The position numbers were made by a program, and so were the translations under genes. Below are positions 720 to 60,407 of a stretch of 64,000 nucleotides of DNA, piece by piece. The stretch spans positions 10,843,001 to 10,907,000 of the forward strand of contig CM059585.1 in assembly GCA_030407085.1 (NCBI GenBank). Direction: 5' to 3'. Numbering within the stretch: the first letter of the stretch is position 1; each line of letters starts with the position of its first letter. The stretch is from Trichopria drosophilae (taxonomy: Eukaryota > Arthropoda > Insecta > Hymenoptera > Diapriidae). The notes below the pieces were generated by a model. The model ran no database searches. It was not told where the DNA came from and was given only the letters and a program-made list of their open reading frames with translations.

Positions 720-3700
720 TTACGATACTTTGCACATTTCGATCGCTTCCGTGTGATCAAGGATATCGGTAACAGTAGTGACGACTCCGCCTGTGAGTAC
801 ATTATTGACAACCGCTCTAGCCAGACAACTCGTAGTCATTGAATAATGCGCAGAGAAAAAGCTCGACATATCATCCGTCTTTTCTATATTTTGATCCTGC
901 AAGAAACAAAAAATTTTAACGCTGGCAAAAACTTAAGGAATTGTCTTACCTTGCAGAAGACAATAAAGGCATCTTCTACGAGTCGATTCAGGTCTAGTTG
1001 TCTTTGGAAAGTTAATTCTGGATTACGCAGAAGAATGGTCGATACAATATTCAACAGCTGCAAAAGAATTACGAATTTATTTCTCTTATAATATGGGAAA
1101 TGAAATTAATGTTTACCTCTACGACTATTTGTCGATATTCTGGTAATTGTATGTGGTGAAGAATAGATTCGACTAGTAGAGCGAATGTCAATTCCGATCG
1201 TGTCATATTGGAGAGAGTCGGTTGCTGGGGTAATTCTCTTCCGTTAACGCATAGACCTCCAGGGCAACGCATTAAAACTTCCCATACTTGATTGTAGAAG
1301 TGGGCTGGGACTCGACACAAACTGCCTTCAATTTTTCTGCGTCCAAGTAGCGATAAGCTTTTAGGGAAAAAACAAACATATCATTATATATTTCATTAAT
1401 AAATATATTGATACACTTATTGAAACTTACTTTTCTTGAACGGCCCAATCTTTGACTGTTAAAACTTTGATTAATAGTTGTCGAACCTCATATGGACTGT
1501 AATTTTCGATAGGCTTCAATGTTTTGCCAAACATTTGAAGGTAAAGTTTCATGGCTTCTAGAACCCATCTGTAGAAAATCCCAATTATTATTGTTAATAA
1601 TACAATAATATAAATACAGTAGAACCCCGCTGGATTGGCACTTCTCGGAATCCCTTTACCCCCACTACGCCGCTCGCCGCCTAAGGGCTGTGTCTAGTTA
1701 GACCTACGCATCGGTTTGGAGTTACAATAGGAAGCAGAGAGATTGTCTGTGATTGGTCATGAACGTCACGTGATTATGGCGTAGAGGTGGAAGCGATGCT
1801 TCCCCTATTGTCGACAGTCCAGCGGGGTTTGTGGGGAATACTCGGAACCGACCGTGACAATCCAGAGGGGTTCTACTGTAAATCTTTTTTCTTCTCTGAC
1901 CCTTTCGTAAGTAAAAATTTTCTTGATGAGTTTCTTTTATTTTATGTCAGATTTACTTGGTGTAATAACTAGACAATTTTTAACGTTTCGGTCATTTATT
2001 TTGACCTTCTTCAGAAAATTATAATTCTAAAAAAATATAAAGTAATACAAAATACAAAATAATAAAAATTACAATATAAAAAATAAATATTTCTAAACAA
2101 CTTTTCATGACCTTCTATTCGGATTTTATTTGGAAAGTAGTAAAAATGTTTTTGTTCAGAAATATTTATTTTTTATATTGTAATTTTTATTATTTTGTAT
2201 TTTGTATTTGTTTATAATTTTTTAGAATTATAATTTTCGGAAGAGGGTCAAAATAAATGACCGAAACGTTAAAAATTGTCTAGTTATTACACCAAGTAAA
2301 TCTGACATAAAATAAAAGAAACTCATAAAAAAAATATAAATAATAATAAAAAAAAGACCGATCGAGAATCGAACCCCGAACTTCTGTGTACGAACAGTAA
2401 GCACTCGGCCATTATTGTTGCCATGGAAATAAACAATAACACAGGTCTACAAAAAAAAGAGGGTCTTGTTGTTGGGAAGCTGTTGGTCATTTTTAACGTA
2501 ATTTTGTGCGCGAATCTGAAGTCAGAATTGCTCCATCAGGTCAGGATGTTGAGATATTTGAGGTTATGTTCTCGAAAAACGCGTTTTTTGCTATGTTTGA
2601 GGTTACGTAATACTTTTGCGTAATACTTTTACTGTAATATTTTTGCGTAACGATCTTTCTCGGATGTAAAGTTGTAAACTATGCTCAAGTATAAGATTAC
2701 GTTTGTCTTTACTATTAAGGTCATTTTTTGGTAATATAGTCGTAGAAATTTTGACGATGCTATTCTACGCCATCTATATTTGCATATACTAATAAAATTG
2801 TTCATATTTTCGATGTATGTTAAAATAAAGTTCATTTTTTATTTATAAATGCATGGATGTGAATTATTATATCGCAAACTGAGCAAATTGTAAATGCATC
2901 TTTACATTCCAGAATGATTATTACGCAAAAATATTAGTCTACAAAATGTAGCAACAAAAAATTTACTTCCAAAAATTTCAACTAATAGATAATTAAAAAA
3001 TGAAACTTTTTCTTCCTTAAAAATTTGTTATATCACGTCAATTTTCCGATAAAGAGCAGATTGAAAAATAACCACATTATTTTGTTAAAAATTAAATAAG
3101 TATTTGTAAAGAATTGTCAGACAAAATCCCGAAGAGGCAAATTGAAACTGAAGGGATTATCTATCGATCACACGTTGCACCTTTCTCTTGCAATAATTTT
3201 TTAAAAAATGGGAGCGATTAAAGAAAAATAATAATACTCAAAAATGACTTTAGTAAATCGAGCATAGTTCAAAGGCAACTGCACGTATGGAAATGAAACC
3301 ACAGCGACTGAGAAGCTGAAAGTCTCCTCTTTAATTCTCTTTTTTTATTTGTTTTCCGTACGTTAACTTGGCGATGAGATATTAACATTTTAAATGAACC
3401 AAAATTCCACAAGGGTAATCTCATAATTATGACGGGTACTGTTTTTATACAAGATTCCAAGTAACCACAGTTTTTTGAAAATCACCCATATGCATATGGA
3501 TAATTCTAGTGCAGATACCTGCACAATAGTAGTTTTTCATGCAAGTGCGTAAAAGTTTTTCTACGAAAATGCGTGAAGGATTTTTGACTGTCAAAAAATC
3601 AATTTCTGCAATGTGAAAACCAAACGAAGAGCCGCAGTGCTGCGAATACCGCGGCACCTAGCGGTTACTACGATTGTTCTTTAAAAAATATATATATATT

Positions 3701-32600: not shown

Positions 32601-33537
32601 ACTCAACGTAAAGTATCCTACTGTCAGTCCTGCGACAGTAGCGGACGAGCACATTCCATTGACCGCTGAAGCCGGTAAGAACAATTTCTAATCCGAGTAC
32701 ATGTTGTAACGAATTTTTTTATGATTGTCCCTGTTCGGGCGCCATTGTAACGAATTTTTTTATGATTGTCCCTGTTCGGGCCCCATTGTAACGATTTTGT
32801 TATGATTCTGGGATTAAAAATAATTTTTTGGCATGCGTAATTAATTTTATGTAAATAATTATTATTTTATATGGATCGGTGTTTTGTCCCAGGTCTGCTC
32901 ACGGACTCGTCAGTTGGGCTATGTGAGCAGACCCTGTCCAAGACACGAAACTAATCATAAATCGTAAATATATATATATAGTAAAATAAAGGATACTACT
33001 CACACACATCCCTACCGCGACGCGCAAAACCGGAACCGCCACCGATCCTTAGTGATCTTCTTCGCGACACAAACTAACTGATACTGATCAACCGAGTTGA
33101 TATTTATACGATTGTCATGCAGGTTTGTAAACAAGCATAATAAATATAAACAAAACAATTGAAAGATTCCTTCCCTATCTCTTATTTTTCTTTATATTCC
33201 TCTATAATACCTCCACCTCTAAAGCATGGTGCATCATAACAAAACACACCGTTACAATGTGAGGGTTAGAATTTTATTAAAATCGGCAACATTATTACAG
33301 TCACTTGTATAATAATAAAAATTGTCGCTCTTCATAGGAGAGAATGCTGACGACAAGAGACTCGAGGTGACGGAGGAGCAGCCTTGCGCCACGGAGGTTA
33401 TCATAGATCCCAAGGACACTACGACGTCGCAGATCCTGGATCTCCTGTCCGACATTAAGGACTGCAGCAATCTTCATAGCCTCGGTCCCAACTTCCATCA
33501 CTGTCCGTGGTGTTCGGGGAAGCTGATCACTGTTTAA
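14648..33537 (+). CDS. GM130: Golgin GM130 / GOLGA2 homologue (12 exons)
   Basis: Cis-Golgi coiled-coil tether that binds p115 at its N-terminus and GRASP65 at its C-terminus. Exons: 14648-14683, 14753-14821, 14883-15215, 28232-28427, 28518-28683 (alternative acceptor 28521), 28742-29072, 29133-29345, 29398-29583, 29639-29878, 32089-32383, 32456-32674, 33338-33537. Phases agree throughout, giving about 827 residues. The N-terminus has RILAARKKLKEFQRNKK, like the basic p115/importin-binding motif of GM130. The family signature LQVQIHTTGILVAEKSELTA is in exon 4, long heptad coiled coils follow, and ETETIGEYVTLYQKQRAIL spans exons 10-11. The C-terminus ends HHCPWCSGKLITV, a PDZ-ligand-like tail. 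Intron 3 is 13 kb of nested transposons. The segment joining exons 9 and 10 is shorter than in vertebrate GM130, so an exon between 29878 and 32089 may have been missed or lost. Confidence 0.92.
15300..16185. mobile_element. TA-flanked TIR element, 'TGGGTCATTCTCC' family
   Basis: The left end is tgggtcattctccagaaaag. The right end, reverse complemented, is tgggttattcttcgaaaaag. TA duplicates at 15298-15299 and 16186-16187. No coding region was seen in 886 bp. It is related by its termini to the elements at 16353-17732 and 27078-28134. Confidence 0.65.
16250..18073 (-). mobile_element. LINE 3' fragment interrupted by a TIR element
   Basis: 16250-16352 matches 18732-18828, and 17733-18073 matches about 19050-19378. 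Together they form a shortened copy of the 3' portion of the LINE that also flanks the large inverted duplication. Read on the minus strand this portion encodes the RT C-terminal segment (GIIAWGSANKS type). The 16353-17732 element sits inside it. Confidence 0.6.
16353..17732. mobile_element. 1.38-kb TA-flanked TIR element, 'TGGGTGATTCTCC' family
   Basis: The TIRs are tgggtgattctccggaaaca at the left and, reverse complemented, tgggtgattctccaaaaaca at the right, extending through 'gggcatttt'. The host sequence is known from the uninterrupted copy at 18823-18835 (gagatatatacc). Here it reads gagata-TA-[element]-TA-tacc, showing a 2-bp TA duplication. No ORF longer than about 75 codons is present, so it is non-autonomous. 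Confidence 0.8.
18074..18735 (+). pseudogene. LINE reverse transcriptase fragment (left arm)
   Basis: Encodes RT pieces in at least two frames: FKIAEIIPIFKNREKHIANN (fingers/palm) and SGVPQGTVLGPLLFIIYTND (RT block 5), then YTKYLGVIIDCHLRWDHHI. The block containing the catalytic YADD/YSDD motif C is missing from the fragment. Frame breaks near 18308-18400 show it is dead. The nearest families are Jockey-superfamily non-LTR elements. Confidence 0.8.
18736..19560 (-). pseudogene. LINE 3' part inverted relative to its RT (left arm)
   Basis: The minus strand reads the RT C-terminal segment (for example SIVTYGIIAWGSANKSIM), while the adjoining 18074-18735 reads the RT core on the plus strand. The same opposite polarity occurs in the right arm (20650-21475 against 21480 onward). 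This is the structure left by twin-priming-type inversion during target-primed reverse transcription (inference). Confidence 0.6.
20650..21475 (+). pseudogene. LINE 3' part inverted relative to its RT (right arm)
   Basis: Mirror copy of 18736-19560. Plus-strand reading gives the GIIAWGSAN-type RT C-terminal segment with stops. It joins the minus-strand RT core at about 21480 with the junction 'gttactgagggtacccttg'. Confidence 0.6.
22295..23651 (-). pseudogene. 5'-truncated LINE fragment: RT with YADD and C-terminal CCHC
   Basis: The minus strand encodes RT palm motif C (IRSIEYADDIVLLAEEEEGL), the thumb region (KYLGYVVTRPGGEKEHV, GILFYGVEIWGYQEWKEVE) and a C-terminal zinc knuckle (CRLCERERENVEHLRNNC). 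A single in-frame TGA at about 22704 splits it. It is flanked by a 15-bp target duplication, ctcgttgttttatta (22280-22294 and 23652-23666), so the insert is complete at its 3' end and truncated at its 5' end. The style matches R1/Jockey-type elements common in ant genomes; the clade was not resolved. Confidence 0.88.
24440..25819. mobile_element. TTAA-flanked palindromic element (piggyBac-like, non-autonomous)
   Basis: Termini are CCCTTTTCGTCCCAAAAGTCC and its near reverse complement, flanked by TTAA at 24436-24439 and 25820-25823. The arms stay complementary for about 400-600 bp, including 'aaaatggcggtttcaagatgg' and its mirror. Removing the element and one TTAA restores the Penelope frame across the gap: DCL then KKRIHKTNN. 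CCC/GGG ends and TTAA duplication are piggyBac hallmarks. There is no transposase. Confidence 0.88.
26737..26788 (+). ncRNA. Type I hammerhead ribozyme motif of the Penelope-like element
   Basis: CTGATGA (26747-26753), then helix II from GGGCTA/TTAGCC around a CGAAAAG loop, with a bulged G, then GAAA (26773-26776) and CGTA. Helix I can form between AAATTT upstream and ATTTTTG downstream (A-U, a 2x2 internal loop, then four pairs). Helix III is only the minimal ACGU type, which in known Penelope ribozymes works best as dimers. Its location near the 3' end of a Penelope-like element matches established examples. Confidence 0.72.
27078..28134. mobile_element. 1.06-kb foldback element, arms over 400 bp, TA target site
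   Basis: Termini are TGGGTCATTCCATGTAAAAT with a mirrored right end. The arms (about 27078-27505 and 27700-28134) are nearly perfect inverted copies through 'aagttatgaacggt', 'cttctacggactttcagtg' and 'acccaaatatgatataat'. A unique loop of about 195 bp (27505-27700) has the only GC-rich stretch. Deleting it with one TA restores the LINE frame ADFNI-NILKNDIGS. It ends less than 100 bp before GM130 exon 4. Confidence 0.85.
29909..32042. mobile_element. 2.1-kb palindromic element between GM130 exons 9 and 10
   Basis: Termini CCTTCGGAAAGGCTG (29909) and, mirrored, CCTTCGGAAAGACTG (32042). Inverted arms include 'accttgcataatggtgcataaaatag' type blocks at 30590-30850 against 31500-31790, and 'ttcattgttgacgccattttga' blocks. 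The symmetry axis is near 31200. A block at about 30100-30590 is present only in the left half. No protein-coding signal was found. It ends about 46 bp before the start of exon 10. Confidence 0.7.
32705..33256 (-). mobile_element. LTR element remnant: 470-bp LTR plus two tandem PBS units
   Basis: On the minus strand, an LTR with TGTAACG...CGTTACA ends spans 33256-32787. It is followed by two 41-bp units (32786-32746 and 32745-32705), each made of a primer-binding site matching tRNA-Lys (GGCGCCCGAACAGGGAC in one, one base changed in the other) and the last 22 bp of the LTR. ATGT flanks both sides (32701-32704 and 33257-33260), the 4-bp duplication of Ty3-type integrases. There is no coding region. 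It lies in the last intron of GM130. The arrangement looks like a solo LTR or retrozyme/TRIM-like element. Confidence 0.85.
32876..32946 (-). ncRNA. Type III hammerhead-like fold in the LTR
   Basis: Same sequence as 60238-60305 on the opposite strand. On the minus strand: GUGU, C17, helix I UUGG...CCAA, core CUGACGA (32907-32913 on the plus strand), helix II GUCC...GGAC, AAA, ACAC closing helix III. The catalytic G12 is A, so it is predicted to be inactive unless another pairing is used. Confidence 0.5.
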
Positions 33538-48800: not shown

Positions 48801-51800
48801 TGCTCTTCCGCGACGTTGATCATTACGTCTGTCCCGTCGGATGAAACGTAACTGCTGACGGAGGTGCTGCTGGTGCTGCTATCGGCATTTCCTGGAGTAA
48901 TCACGTGGACGATCGGTGTCGATGATGCACACGTTCCCTTACATGATTGTTCTGAAACCTTGGGTCGAATTTCCGTTTCGATTTTTGGTGGTTCTTCAGG
49001 CGTTTGGACTTTCGTTCTACTTTCGACCATCTCCGTCTTCGTTCTACATTTTTTACCTCCCGATCGCGCGATTTCCACCTGAACACCTTTATCAAAGGCA
49101 GCGGTCGATGTCTGAACAGCGGTTTCCTTTTTCTTCGTCGCGGGAATGTCTTCTTTACACGACACGTCAATAACCGTTACTTGGGGCTCCTCGAAATGTT
49201 CGGTGGCATTGCAACAAATCTTCTTTTTCCGTTGCGGTTCGCAGCAAGTTTTCCTACTGACGAGATTCAAAATACTTTCCGGTAAATTTGCGCCTAGTTC
49301 CTTCATGATTTTCCATTTTTGCATATCGACGGTTTTCAACATGTCGAGAAGTTGGCCGACATTCGTCCCTTCGCTCTCCTCGTCGGAACTTTTGCTGGAA
49401 CACTCGGCGAAGGATGGCGGTACCGTCCAATCACTACCAAGTGGAGCGTGCTCCAGGTTGCTACGAGGCGTGATCGTTATTGGCCTTTCCGTCGGGACGC
49501 TTGTTTCACCCAAACTCCTTAACGACTCGAAGGTTCGGTTCATCTTCTTTTGTCTTTGCGCCAACAACTCCTTTTTACGCGATGGAGGAATAAGCGCGTT
49601 AACGCTCTGCAGATAATTTTTAGTTAATTAAAAGGCACTTAAAGTAACTACAAAAAATGAAATCAAAATTCTTTCCGAAAGTTTAAGAAACAAATTATGA
49701 AAATCAAAAAAATTCTTCTCCAGTTTGTCGCCAGTTTTCATACTCCGTAAGTTTATGGATATCTTTGTGATATTGTTATGAAATGAAGGTTTTCTATAAT
49801 CTTTGGGTTTACTCTTTTCGAATATGTAGTCCATTTTTCGATATCACTTTCTATTTTTTAAATATGGCTACTTAAACGAAAGAACACGTCGAAAAAAGCG
49901 AAAACTTTTTCAGTAAACTGCAATTTTTATTGTGAAGGACTTCCGGAATCGTGTCAGGCCTCAGAATCCAGTGGCATAACGAGTTTTTACTAAAAGTTAG
50001 TCAATATTAAGATTTAAATTACAAAATGGCGTCTTCACAATGGCGCTCAAATTCGGGTTTTATTTGGATTCTATTCATACGGCATTTTTTTACATTTTAT
50101 TAAAATATTTCTGGTATTTTGACGTCTATTTTGATGAATATGTAGATTATTTTTGAGGTGACTGAATACTAAATTGTAATTGTAACTTCTAAATACTAAA
50201 TACCAGACAATTTTTTTTAAATTTCGGTAAGCCATATTGGATTCGCCATTTCCAAAATGTAATTACGGATTATTATTCAGAAACGTCAAAAATAATCTAC
50301 AAGAAATATTCATCTAAATAAACGACAAGATATCAGAAATATGTTAATAAAACACAAATAACAAACCCCGATAAAAATAAACAATAAACAAAACCCGAAT
50401 CAATATCGCCATTGTGAGGACGCCATTTTGTAATTTAAATTTTAATATTGACTAACTTTTAGTAAAACTAATTATGGCACAGGATTCTGAGGCCTTACAC
50501 GATCTTGGAAGTCCTTCGCAATAAAAATTGTTCACTAAAAAAGTTTTCGCTTTTTTTCACATTTTTTTTCGTATAAGGAACCATATTTAAAAAATGGAAA
50601 GTAATATGAAAAAACGGACTTCAGATACGAAAAGAGCATACTCAAAAACTATAGGAAACCTTCATAACAATATCTCAAAGATATCCTTAAACTTACGGAG
50701 GAGGAAACCGACGACAAATTTGGTAGTTTTGGGACGAAACGGATTAAGTGAAAATTCTCTTTGTTATGTTTCTTTCAAAACCGGAATATGGACAAGATGG
50801 TAAAAATTAATTTAATGATTTAACACGTGAGTTCGTTAATTTGTATTGAAATTTGAATTTATTCACGATGAAGGAAAACCAATTCAACACTGTACGATGA
50901 AAAAGGCGAACTTAATTTAGAAAACACATGTAAAATCCATATGTACTTAGAATTTGGAGGTTACGTACTCGAAAAATTATTTTTTATAGGTTATGTAGTC
51001 GAAAAATTATTTTTTTTTTGAGGTTATGTACTAGAAAAATTATTTTTTTTTGAGGTTATGTACAAGAGAATTTTTTTACTTCATCTTCTTAGTAAGAAAT
51101 CGAAAAATATTGTTTATTTTCGTGGTTCTTCATAAAATCTACCACGACCAAAGGTTATTTAACTAATCTTTTTTTCATTTATTTTAAGAATTTCAAGTAC
51201 TTTTATTCGTTTCGGCATCGATTTACCATAAAACAGCTCGATTTTAATAAATATTTCGGATGTTTGTAAGGATTTAAAGTCAAACTGAAGTTAGCAGTTG
51301 TTAATTTAATAAAACTGTGTTCCATAACCTACAAAAATTCGAAAAATTGAGTTTATTTAAAATTTCCTCGTGAGATTTTTTTCTTTTTAGACTTAAAATA
51401 ATCGTGTGGCGTTAATGAAACAATATCAGAAAACAAAATGTAACTTTTGGGTTAAAGTTACTTAAAAGACGCTTAAAGTAACTACAAAAAATGAAATCAA
51501 AAAGTTCTATCCGAAATTTTAAGAAACAAATGTAAAATCCATATGTACTTAGAATTTTGAGGTTATGTACCAGAAAAATTATTTTTTTTTTGAGGTTATG
51601 TATTCGAAAAATTATTTTTTTTGAGGTTATGTACTCGAAAATTAATTTTTTTATAGGTTATGTACAAGAAATATATTAAATTATGATATTTGGCACAACG
51701 CCACGAGTATTAAACAAACGTAAAATCCATATGTACGTAGAATTTTGAGGTTACGTACTCGAAAAATTATTTTTTTTAGGTTATGTACAAGAGATATATT

Positions 51801-54800
51801 AAATAATGACATTTGTTAATTAAATAAAACTGTATACCATAACCTACAAAAATTCGAAAAATTGAGTTTATTTAAAATTTCGTCGTTAGATTTTTTCTTT
51901 TTAGTCTTAAAATAATCGTGTAGCGTTACTGAAACAATATCAGAAAACAAAATGTCACTTTTGGGTTAAAGTTACTTGAAAGACGTTTAAAGTAACTACA
52001 AAAAATGAAATCCAAATTCTTTCCCAAAATTTTAAAAGAAACAAACGTAAAATCCATATATATTTAGAATTTTGAGGTTACGTACTCGAAAAATTACTTT
52101 TTTTTTAGGTTATGTACTAGAAAAATTATTGTTTTTGAGGTTATGTACTAGAGATACATTAAATTATGGCATTTAGCACAACGCCACGAGCATTTACATT
52201 ACTCCTTTTACATTTACTTCGTCTTCTTAGTAACAAATAAAAAAATATTGTTTATTTTCGTGGTTCATCAGAAAATCTACAGCGACTAAAGGTTATTTTT
52301 AAATCTATTGAAAATAACTAATCTTTTTCACGTATATTAAGAATTTCAAGTACTTTTATTCGTTTGGCATCAATTTACCATAAAACAGTTCGATTTTAAC
52401 AAATATTTCGGATTTTTGTAAGGATTTAAAGTCAAACTGAAGTTGGTAGTTGTTAATTTAATAAAACTGATGCCATAACCTACAAAAATTCGAAAAATCG
52501 AGATTATTTAAAATTTCCTCGTGAGATTTTTTTCTTTTTATTCTTAAAATAATCGTGTGGAGTTACTGAAACAATATGAGAAAACAAAATGTCACTTTTG
52601 GGTTAAAGTTACTTAAAAGACGCTTAAAGTAACTACAAAAAATGAAATCAAAAAGTTCTATCCGAAATTTTAAGAAACAAATGTAAAATCCATGTGTACT
52701 TAGAATTTTGAGGTTATGTACTAGAAAAATTATTTTTTTTTGAGGTTATGTACTCGAAAATTAATTTTTTTTTAGGTTATATACGAGAAATATATTAAAT
52801 TATGACATTTAGCGTAACGCCACCAGCATTCACATTACTCCTTTTACATTTACTTCGTCTTCTTAGTAACAAACCGAAAAATATTGTTTATTTTCTTGGT
52901 TTTTCAGAAAATCTAACACGTAAACAAACGTAAAATCCATATATACGTAGAATATTGAGGTTACGTACTCAAAAAATTATTTTTTTTTAGGTTATGTACT
53001 AGAAAAATCATTTTTTTTTAGGTTATGTACTAGAAAAATTCTTTTTTTTAGGTTATGTACTAGAAAAATTATTTTTTTTTGAGGTTATGTACGCGAAAAT
53101 TAATTTTTTTTAGGTTATGTACAAGAAATATATTAGATTATGACATTTAGCACAACGCCAAGAGCATTCACATTACTCCTTTTAAATTTACTTCGTCTTC
53201 TTAGTAACAAGTCGAAAAATATTGTTTATTTTAGTGGTTTTTCAGAAAATCTAACACGTAAACAAACGAAAAATCCATATGTACGTAGAATTTTGAGGTT
53301 ACGAACTCGAAAAATTATTTCTTTTTAGGTTATGTATTAGAAAAAATTAGTTTTTTTGAGGTTATATACTCGAAAAATCATTTTTTTAGGTTATGTACAA
53401 GAAATATATTAAATTATGACATTTATCACAACGCCACGAACATACACATTACTCCTTTTAAATTTACTTCGTCTTCTTAGTAACAAGTCGAAAAATATTG
53501 TTTATTTTAGTGGTTTTTCAGAAAATCTAACACGTAAACAAACGAAAAATCCATATGTACGTAGAATTTTGAGGTTACGTACTCGAAAAATTATTTTTTT
53601 TAGGTTATGTACAAGAGATATATTAAATAATGACATTTGTTAATTAAATAAAACTGTATACCATAACCTACAAAAATTCGAAAAATTGAGTTTATTTAAA
53701 ATTTCGTCGTTAGATTTTTTCTTTTTAGTCTTAAAATAATCGTGTAGCGTTACTGAAACAATATCAGAAAACAAAATGTCACTTTTGGGTTAAAGTTACT
53801 TGAAAGACGTTTAAAGTAACTACAAAAAATGAAATCCAAATTCTTTCCCAAAATTTTAAAAGAAACAAACGTAAAATCCATATATATTTAGAATTTTGAG
53901 GTTACGTACTCGAAAAATTACTTTTTTTTTAGGTTATGTACTAGAAAAATCATTTTTTTTTAGGTTATGTACTAGAAAAATTCTTTTTTTTAGGTTATGT
54001 ACTAGAAAAATTCTTTTTTTTTTGAGGTTATGTACGCGAAAATTAATTTTTTTTAGGTTATGTACAAGAAATATATTAGATTATGACATTTAGCACAACG
54101 CCAAGAGCATTCACATTACTCCTTTTAAATTTACTTCGTCTTCTTAGTAACAAGTCGAAAAATATTGTTTATTTTAGTGGTTTTTCAGAAAATCTAACAC
54201 GTAAACAAACGAAAAATCCATATGTACGTAGAATTTTGAGGTTACGAACTCGAAAAATTATTTCTTTTTAGGTTATGTATTAGAAAAAATTAGTTTTTTT
54301 GAGGTTATATACTCGAAAAATCATTTTTTTAGGTTATGTACAAGAAATATATTAAATTATGACATTTATCACAACGCCACGAACATACACATTACTCCTT
54401 TTAAATTTACTTCGTCTTCTTAGTAACAAGTCGAAAAATATTGTTTATTTTAGTGGTTTTTCAGAAAATCTAACACGTAAACAAACGAAAAATCCATATG
54501 TACGTAGAATTTTGAGGTTACGAACTCGAAAAATTATTCTTTTTTAGGTTATGTATTAGAAAAAATTAGTTTTTTTGAGGTTATATACTCGAAAAATCAT
54601 TTTTTTAGGTTATGTACAAGAAATATATTAAATTATGACATTTATCACAACGCCACGAGCATTCACATTACTCGCCAATTTTTTTACTTCGTTTTCTTAG
54701 TAACAAAGGTCAAAAACAATTGTTTTCTACGCATAACCTCAAATATCTCAAATATCTCAAATTCTGACGTGGGTCGATTCTAACCTCAAATTGTGATTCT

Positions 54801-59310: not shown

Positions 59311-60018
59311 GGGCTGCGTGGAAAAACGGCGTAACTCGACTTAGGTGATTTTTCCGGAAAAGAGCGAGTAATGATTTTATTAATGCATGGCTTACGAAAT
59401 TTTTCAAGTATTTTTTGCGCATAAAGCAACTCGAATTAGGCTGTTTTTACGAAAATCGAAATATTCGAATAGATACTTCAGTTATAAAAAATATTGTACT
59501 CGGGGTAAATATCGCAGATTCTTTTTTCGTCGTTGTGTTACGTCCCACGTAACGGCAATACCATTCTTTTATTTAACTCCATCTTTTAAGAAATCCACAA
59601 AACATAATCGGAGCTACGTTGCTTAGTTATACCGATAACAGTTTTTAGTAATAAAGAACACTACCCTACCGATCTCGAAGGGTACAAACAGTGTTGCCAA
59701 GTCCCAGAAGGCAAAATTCGGTAGACCTTCAGTAAAATTTCGGTAGATTTCAGTAGATTCTGTTTAAATCTTTGAATACAACCGTAAAAGCATTATTGTA
59801 TTTATTTATCATGAATATTATGCACCAATGATAATTTTATTAGCGAGTAATTAATTATTTATATTTTTTATTGATTAAATCTCTCGTTAGTTGCATCTCG
59901 ATGTAAACTGGGTTTAATGATATTTTACCAGTGTTCCGCCATGTACACTCTGCACTGTACTGGGTGAGTGCAATAGAATGGAACATAGGGAACCAAACCT
60001 AAAATTTGTAAATGTATA
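59311..60018. other. Non-coding, nothing recognised
   Basis: AT-rich sequence with a short imperfect repeat 'ttcggtagaccttcagtaaa' / 'tttcggtagatttcagtaga' near 59718-59758. No gene evidence. Confidence 0.4.
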
Positions 60019-60205
60019 CACTGAGAGGCTCTTCGGACCGCACCCGAACTACTCAGAGTATAGTAGCGCGACGATAGTTTTCGCACAGGTGTCGACCGAT
60101 TTTTCTGACGGGAGACGTCCGATTTTGTCGGACCGTTGCCAGCAGCCAACAAAAGTCGCAGGCGCGCGGGAATACGAAAAAGAGGCGACATTCATGCTTC
60201 ACAAA

Positions 60206-60397
60206 TATATATATATTTACGATTTATGATTAGTTTCGTGTCTTGGACAGGGTCTGCTCACATAGCCCAACTGACGAGTCCGTGAGCAGACCTGGGACAA
60301 AACACCGATCCATATAAAATAATAATTATTTACATAAAATTAATTACGCATGCCAAAAAATTATTTTTAATCCCAGAATCATAACAAAATCGTTACA
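60206..60397 (+). mobile_element. Partial copy of the hammerhead-carrying LTR
   Basis: Nearly identical to the last 190 bp of the LTR at 32787-33256, in the opposite orientation, ending CGTTACA followed by ATGT. The 5' part of the LTR is missing. It is inserted in the 60019-61136 element. Confidence 0.8.
60238..60305 (+). ncRNA. Type III hammerhead-like fold in the partial LTR
   Basis: GUGU (60238-60241), C17 (60242, GUC triplet), helix I UUGG (60243-60246)/CCAA (60267-60270), core CUGACGA (60271-60277), helix II GUCC (60278-60281)/GGAC (60295-60298), AAA (60299-60301), ACAC (60302-60305) closing helix III. Canonical GAAA would need G at 60299, which is A. The two loops contain an 11-bp perfect complement, GGTCTGCTCAC (60251-60261) and GTGAGCAGACC (60282-60292). 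Confidence 0.5.
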
Positions 60398-60407
60398 ATG
60401 TATATGT

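Follow-up and report, generated by a model that had tools for sequence, protein, structure and literature searches.

Type III hammerhead copies lacking the catalytic G12, and an LTR family resembling plant retrozymes, in an apparently animal genome

Two copies of what a first-pass annotation described as a type III hammerhead in an LTR, with A in the place of the catalytic G12, are found in the 64,000 nucleotides of DNA analysed here (the window). Are these copies of a real ribozyme, and if so, what kind of element does it come from and where is its intact form? The positions of the copies and their parts are given in Table 1. All hammerhead parts that had been named are located in the sequence where the annotation placed them, and the A is present both at 60299 and in the minus-strand copy. 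This change from G to A in GAAA had been taken as the only one, but helix I has an additional A-C mismatch (A60247, C60266). The 4-bp UUGG/CCAA that had been given as helix I is what remains in the window copy, while in most copies read of the repeat family concerned (family A) this helix has 6 bp (UUGGGC/GCCCAA). The complementarity of loop I and loop II is exact over 11 bp in copy 1, or 12 bp with a G-U pair. Given both G12A and the helix I mismatch, cleavage should be abolished or crippled, and we infer that the window copies, lacking the catalytic base, are dead. Elsewhere in the window, an ORF is similar (E 1.5e-12) to the beta regulatory subunit of phosphorylase b kinase, presumably an animal gene, and a complex tandem array of 74-300-bp repeats occupies 50919-54673.

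Table 1. Positions in the window of the two hammerhead copies, their parts and the LTR sequences around them
Feature	Position	Strand	Basis or remark
Type III hammerhead, copy 1	60238..60305	+	sequence; model R1 93.7 bits, model R2 66.4 bits
Copy 1, order of parts: GUGU / C17 / helix I / CUGACGA / helix II / A12 A A / ACAC			
Copy 1, helix III (GUGU / ACAC)	60238-60241 / 60302-60305		
Copy 1, C17	60242		
Copy 1, helix I strands	60243-60248 + 60265-60270		
Copy 1, CUGACGA	60271-60277		
Copy 1, helix II (GUCC / GGAC)	60278-60281 / 60295-60298		
A replacing catalytic G12	60299	+	sequence; G in 50/53 family-A copies
Loop I stretch complementary to loop II (11 nt)	60251..60261	+	sequence; covariation
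Loop II stretch complementary to loop I (11 nt)	60282..60292	+	sequence; covariation
Type III hammerhead, copy 2, identical to copy 1	32879..32946	-	sequence; models R1 and R2
Solo family-A LTR, 552 bp, TGTAACG...CGTTACA	32705..33256	-	two terminal 41-bp units with PBS-like stretch
Target-site duplication ACAT, 3' side	32701..32704	-	sequence
Target-site duplication ACAT, 5' side	33257..33260	-	sequence
5'-truncated family-A LTR piece	60205..60397	+	in AT run of DNA transposon

The two copies belong to one lineage. A 196-bp block (60205-60400, and 32979-32784 on the minus strand) is 100% identical between them. The hammerhead had been placed in an LTR, which holds for the minus-strand copy, in a solo family-A LTR with a perfect 4-bp duplication ACAT (33256-32705), while the copy at 60238 is in a truncated piece. 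The junctions of this piece show AT-run and ATG microhomology, and it appears to be a shortened copy of the solo LTR that lies 27 kb from it. Its host is DNA transposon-like, with matching ends judged by eye to be near 60017 and 61138 (TACACTGAG...CTCAGTGTA); relatives of the host without the LTR piece are found at L011, L021, and L030. Among 28 copies, three changes (T in TTTATGATT, the A in helix I, and A12) are common only to the two window copies (L001 and L002). Because only these two have all three, one window copy probably templated the other locally. The presence of A12 in both had been pointed out, but counting them as two independent witnesses was rejected, since the three private changes are common to both and the piece at 60205-60397 is truncated. 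Taken singly, G12A is also found in L073 and in a decayed copy (L049:6436-6509) outside the 53 copies considered below, and the helix I A is seen again in the older copies L063 and L067. The decayed L049 hammerhead is family-A-like and lies 1.9 kb from a family-C one (see below), on the opposite strand.

The intact form that had been expected elsewhere is found in the same assembly. In the family-A search of this 936-Mb assembly, the best 40 of 590 candidates were scored; these are the matches closest to the window query, so the sample is skewed to young copies. To these, 14 short stretches of older copies were added via a search with the internal region (58 candidates, 40 scored), in which pieces are 65-100% identical and older family-A subfamilies therefore exist. 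Among the 53 distinct hammerheads (54 rows, L056 and the second L060 row being the same place), G12 is present in 50, the exceptions being the two window copies and L073, and G12-A15.1 reads GAAA in 50 of the 53. Thus the annotation's caveat that no genomic copy may have G12 does not apply. CUGACGA is altered in 4 (L026, L068, L072, L075) of the 52 copies where it is readable. C17 is C, A, or T over 51 readable copies, with A in a subset (e.g., L028, L052, L054, L060) and T in one. NUH cleavage sites ending in A can be cleaved. At the family level, three predicted helices in the type III order, CUGANGA ... GAAA, and an NUH site can all be read.

Is the hammerhead better conserved than the LTR around it? 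In 11 older copies that hold all or almost all of the ribozyme, differences from a young copy number 40 in 747 sites of the ribozyme and 213 in 1923 of the LTR beside it (Fisher p 3e-6, which is optimistic as the copies are related; L062, L064, and L074 are left out). Stretch L064 has no hammerhead. In 36 young LTRs the hammerhead is hardly better conserved, with 0.85% difference vs 1.12% for the rest.

Family A, as read from its sequence, is a non-coding LTR retrotransposon with two (once three) LTRs, a primer-binding site (PBS), a polypurine tract (PPT), and 4-bp target-site duplications (TSDs). Its LTRs are about 510-590 bp long. The LTR start was located in 23 of 27 loci, and without L010, which is the 3' LTR of a two-LTR element, an exact 4-bp TSD is found in 21 of the 22 solo LTRs. 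L039 is an LTR-internal-LTR-internal-LTR array with two internal regions of about 940 bp; its 1449-bp units are 99.93% identical and a single TSD (AGTT) flanks the whole array. L060 is LTR-internal-LTR, spans 2.3 kb, and has the TSD GTAT. The type III hammerhead is present in all LTRs of these non-coding elements, three in L039 and two in L060. In both, the PPT aaaaggggggtaa closes the internal regions immediately 5' of the LTR. The internal regions open with a PBS-like stretch, and such stretches in family A (tggcgcccgaccgtaggac and tggngcccgaacagggac) are, we assume, of the tRNA-Lys type and not tRNA-Met. No ATG ORF longer than 72 aa is entirely contained in the internal regions of L039; a 199-aa ORF enters the first LTR from outside and a 727-aa ORF lies beyond the element. 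A gypsy-like ORF was identified by eye upstream in L060. No coding partner was found in a non-exhaustive look at L039, L060, and pieces of one family-C element (see below). Upstream of the ribozyme in families A and B, TATAAATA is followed 26 nt on by ATCAGTT, by eye a putative core promoter; in family A the cleavage site is about 140 nt downstream of ATCAGTT.

The ends of young family-A LTRs (33256-32705 minus, L006, L013, L055, L060) contain one to three terminal 41-bp units, each made of a PBS-like stretch and a copy of the LTR end. The units have two PBS forms, which presumably resemble tRNA-Lys isoacceptors, and they read as if each were the record of one priming event. The PBS adjoining the internal region is an exact fit to neither form, and several older copies are without such units. 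A tRNA-like stretch (L039:3634-3695, 22.4 bits, cut-off 29) lies in a family-A internal region.

Hammerheads are also found in three other repeat families of the same genome. In the search with Rfam RF00008 (68 of 124,751 candidates scored), eight places were found, all below the gathering cut-off of 48.5 bits: six in family B, one in family C (L038), and one in family D (L031). Thus six ribozymes are seen for B and one each for C and D. Families B and C look like LTR elements. Family B has 674 first-look candidates, of which 40 were scored at 85-92% (query excluded). One pair of its LTRs is 3.08 kb apart, with PPT-like gtgggggagca before the second LTR, and L047 has the 5-bp duplication ATCAG; at the other B loci no exact duplication could be read. 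Family C has 1500 first-look candidates, of which 40 were scored at 94-98% (query excluded), with pairs 5.1 and 5.8 kb apart and PBS- and PPT-like ends in one. In each of three samples of about 300 nt from a single 5.1-kb family-C element, every frame is interrupted by stops. The exact 33-mer of the family-C ribozyme has a single genomic match, and it is therefore changed or missing in most C copies. Two twister-P1-like matches (L035:724-777 and 3023-3074; 44.4 and 49.5 bits, cut-off 67.2), one on each strand, flank a family-B hammerhead at distances of 0.7 and 1.4 kb. A long hairpin at L038:2789-2974 scores 91 bits against plant MIR820 (cut-off 196) and is possibly a transposon inverted repeat. 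A viral-contig pattern scan gave no matches.

The covariance-model check proposed in the first-pass annotation has two outcomes. RF00008 scores stay below the cut-off: 38.4-44.5 bits for L031-L038, 22.9 bits for L039, and 19.3 bits for the window copy (E 0.67 over 1701 bases), with helix I misplaced; at the gathering cut-off the whole 64-kb window gives no Rfam match. Model R2, built from families B, C, and D only (7 sequences), finds the window copies at 66.4 bits (E 5.7e-19 over 182,903 bases, such E-values being rough), and the family-A copies supplied to it score 72-76 bits. At the level of sequence, the window motif is thus confirmed as a real type III hammerhead.

We favor the following explanation, to which we give a probability of roughly 0.7. 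The window motif would be a disabled type III hammerhead from a non-coding family-A LTR, the LTRs of families B and C carry the same ribozyme, and the family would move by an RNA-circle route. This is supported by G12 in 50 of the 53 family-A copies read, by the TSDs of the solo LTRs, by the anatomy of L039 and L060 and the short ORFs inside L039, by LTRs of different families being similar in the hammerhead only, by the double changes in helices and loop-loop pairs, by the fewer differences in the ribozyme than in the flanks of older copies, and by a B/C/D model finding A. The small number of B, C, and D ribozymes, the single genomic match of the C 33-mer, the absence of any Rfam score at the cut-off, the slight conservation in young copies, the fold energies that favor a hairpin, and the counts of double-change pairs and pair types, which stay at the level of shuffles, count against it, as does the fit of the L039 array to recombination. 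By analogy with the LTR retrozymes of plants, families A, B, and C are most likely their animal counterparts, whose RNA would be cut at the hammerheads of both LTRs and then circularised. The wider claim is tentative, and we hold it at a little under even odds: that at least three non-autonomous LTR families with dissimilar LTRs and type III hammerheads, whose loops I and II kiss over a helical turn, spread as RNA circles, which would make them animal LTR retrozymes with a new hammerhead architecture.

In the proposed route, transcription would start in the LTR upstream of the hammerhead (TATAAATA, then ATCAGTT). A transcript through two LTRs would carry two hammerheads, and if both cut, a monomer of one period would be released, about 1.45-1.8 kb (1449 nt in L039 and about 1820 nt in L060). 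Its ends would be a 5'-OH and a 2',3'-cyclic phosphate, and RtcB is a ligase for such ends; a host ligase of this kind could circularise it. The circle would be copied by a trans-acting LTR-retrotransposon reverse transcriptase, primed by a tRNA, presumably tRNA-Lys. Ligation and tRNA-primed copying of the circle follow the model for plant retrozymes as set out in the parts of PMC4918200 and PMC7761336 used here. The L039 array with its single TSD fits multimeric copying, and it fits LTR-LTR recombination as well.

Instead of giving rise to circles, the hammerhead may only trim the transcript, for example freeing a capped leader or a 3' end, with transposition from linear RNA. The solo LTRs look ordinary and their LTR-type TSDs (21/22) are expected of conventional LTR cDNA; we give this explanation something like one chance in four. 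In LTR reverse transcription, normal strand transfer relies on the repeated region of the linear template, and a cut within this region should do harm. The L039 array within one TSD pair fits a circular or multimeric template. Neither point is decisive.

Another explanation is that the conserved thing is the 11-12-bp hairpin formed by the two loop stretches, serving packaging, RNA export, or dimerisation, and that the hammerhead is a fossil around it. The nearest-neighbour energies favor the hairpin over the three-stem fold without loop contact in family A (-28.9 vs -15.0 kcal/mol), B (-35.1 vs -19.9), and C (-23.1 vs -16.5), making it the fold of lowest energy for the A, B, and C sequences examined, and hammerhead folding therefore may be poor. 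The loop complementarity also covaries. However, so do helices I and III, and the hairpin could form without these. Between families, double changes are found in helix III (GC/AU), helix I (UA/GC/AU), and two loop-loop pairs (UA/CG), while helix II is invariant; a second alignment (17 sequences, window copies excluded) agrees. Over 20 distinct but related hammerheads, 96.9% of the cells are paired, compared with 92.5 +- 0.5% when shuffled (0 of 500) and 28-44% when slid, and 24 cells are changed on both sides vs 7.7 +- 2.0 when shuffled; pairs with double changes (5 vs 4.1) and pair types (13 vs 14.2) are not above the shuffles. A lack of covariation in the helices, named in the first-pass annotation as a sign against the ribozyme, is thus not what is found. 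Moreover, the CUGANGA and GAAA core is retained in A, B, C, and D, and D, in its one ribozyme, keeps the hammerhead without the long complementarity, with the hammerhead as its minimum-energy fold (-14.1). The annotation's other worry, that the loop hairpin alone explains the conservation, fails on this D ribozyme, and we consider a hairpin within a fossil unlikely. Drawn on paper, the four helices are compatible with one another in a single kissing structure. Natural hammerheads are activated by loop-loop contact, and the long loop I/loop II pairing is taken, by analogy, as an extreme form of it.

Slightly less likely still is that the hammerhead is common to the families through recent exchange of LTR segments, and not through maintenance. 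It is indeed the only significant similarity among the A, B, and C LTRs compared. With one copy of each, the LTRs match significantly in the hammerhead alone: A with B at 85% over 67 nt (E 1.6e-15; next match 0.035), A with C at 91% over 66 nt (E 1.2e-21; next match 0.034), and B with C at 89% over 73 nt (E 4.7e-22; next match 0.17). However, in all three comparisons the common segment stops at the ribozyme borders and differs by compensatory pair changes, which are not expected of a recent patch. The D ribozyme has no match to A under E 0.19, and its best matches to C (E 0.002-0.006) fall partly in AT-rich sequence; D is too divergent for the LTR comparison. Chance resemblance, to which RF00008 alone (E 0.67 for the window copy, 1701 bases) would give room, is rejected as hardly credible in the face of G12 in 50 of 53 copies, the cross-family model score (E 5.7e-19), and four hammerhead-bearing repeat families.

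The disabled hammerhead of a putatively circle-forming family-A element, our preferred reading, can be compared with several known systems. The metazoan retrozymes (Cervera and de la Pena 2020, PMC7229834, as far as consulted) have type I hammerheads in 150-450-bp tandem repeats, stated to be without LTR, PBS, or PPT. Family A is like them a non-coding hammerhead-bearing retroelement, of what looks like an animal, but has the type III form, an LTR, and PBS-like and PPT stretches. In the parts of PMC7936874 used here, type III hammerheads with loop 1-loop 2 pseudoknots are described for HDV-like RNAs and for termite and dipteran genomes, and the authors looked for this architecture without success in some hymenopterans, hemipterans, and a cockroach. 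The type III topology of those insect copies and the Watson-Crick pairing of loops 1 and 2 are common to them and family A. However, the contact there involves a motif of 4 nt next to helices I and II that are longer, and here 11-12 bp, and the termite copies are isolated motifs with no LTR context given in those parts. The long loop-loop complementarity offers a new structure for testing tertiary contacts in hammerheads.

TRIMs and Helenus (Kojima 2024, PMC10886601) are, like family A, small non-autonomous LTR elements with solo LTRs; in the text of that paper available here, 'hammerhead' and 'ribozyme' occur only in a reference. The same text gives tRNA-Lys among the primers of hymenopteran families and tandem arrays in one (fish) family, and places a tRNA-like stretch in the LTR, unlike the sub-cut-off one in the family-A internal region. 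Two LTRs, PBS, PPT, and the lack of an ORF agree with TRIMs, but the size does not, being above 1 kb in L060 (2.3 kb) and in the L039 unit (1449 bp).

The closest system is that of the plant LTR retrozymes (Cervera et al. 2016, PMC4918200; features as summarised in PMC7761336, both consulted in part). These are non-coding LTR elements with a type III hammerhead in the LTR, PBS, PPT, and a 4-bp TSD, and tandem copies and single LTRs are also on record (PMC11722881, in part). Family A agrees in all of these, and differs in having a host that looks animal, LTRs of about 510-590 bp vs about 350, and a period between hammerheads of 1.45-1.8 kb vs about 0.7 kb. The PBS of the plant elements is of the tRNA-Met type, which that of family A, presumably of the Lys type, is not. 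Their loops are small with non-canonical contacts, compared with 16 and 13 nt and 11-12-bp pairing here. In the open PMC literature, so far as its text could be consulted, no animal LTR retrotransposon with a type III hammerhead is described; unpublished or subscription-only work may overlap, and the part of PMC7761336 used lists insect elements with type III hammerheads as 'in preparation'. Family A bears on the bacterial or insect source proposed there for plant type III hammerheads, and its many natural variants can be used for asking why the ribozyme sits in the LTR. As the first-pass annotation said, a type III form in such an LTR is unusual, since the literature consulted divides type III in plant LTR elements from type I in animal non-LTR ones. 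The family behind the window copies looks like a variant of the LTR retrozymes in what looks like an animal genome, and thus crosses the divide between the plant and animal retrozymes described so far.
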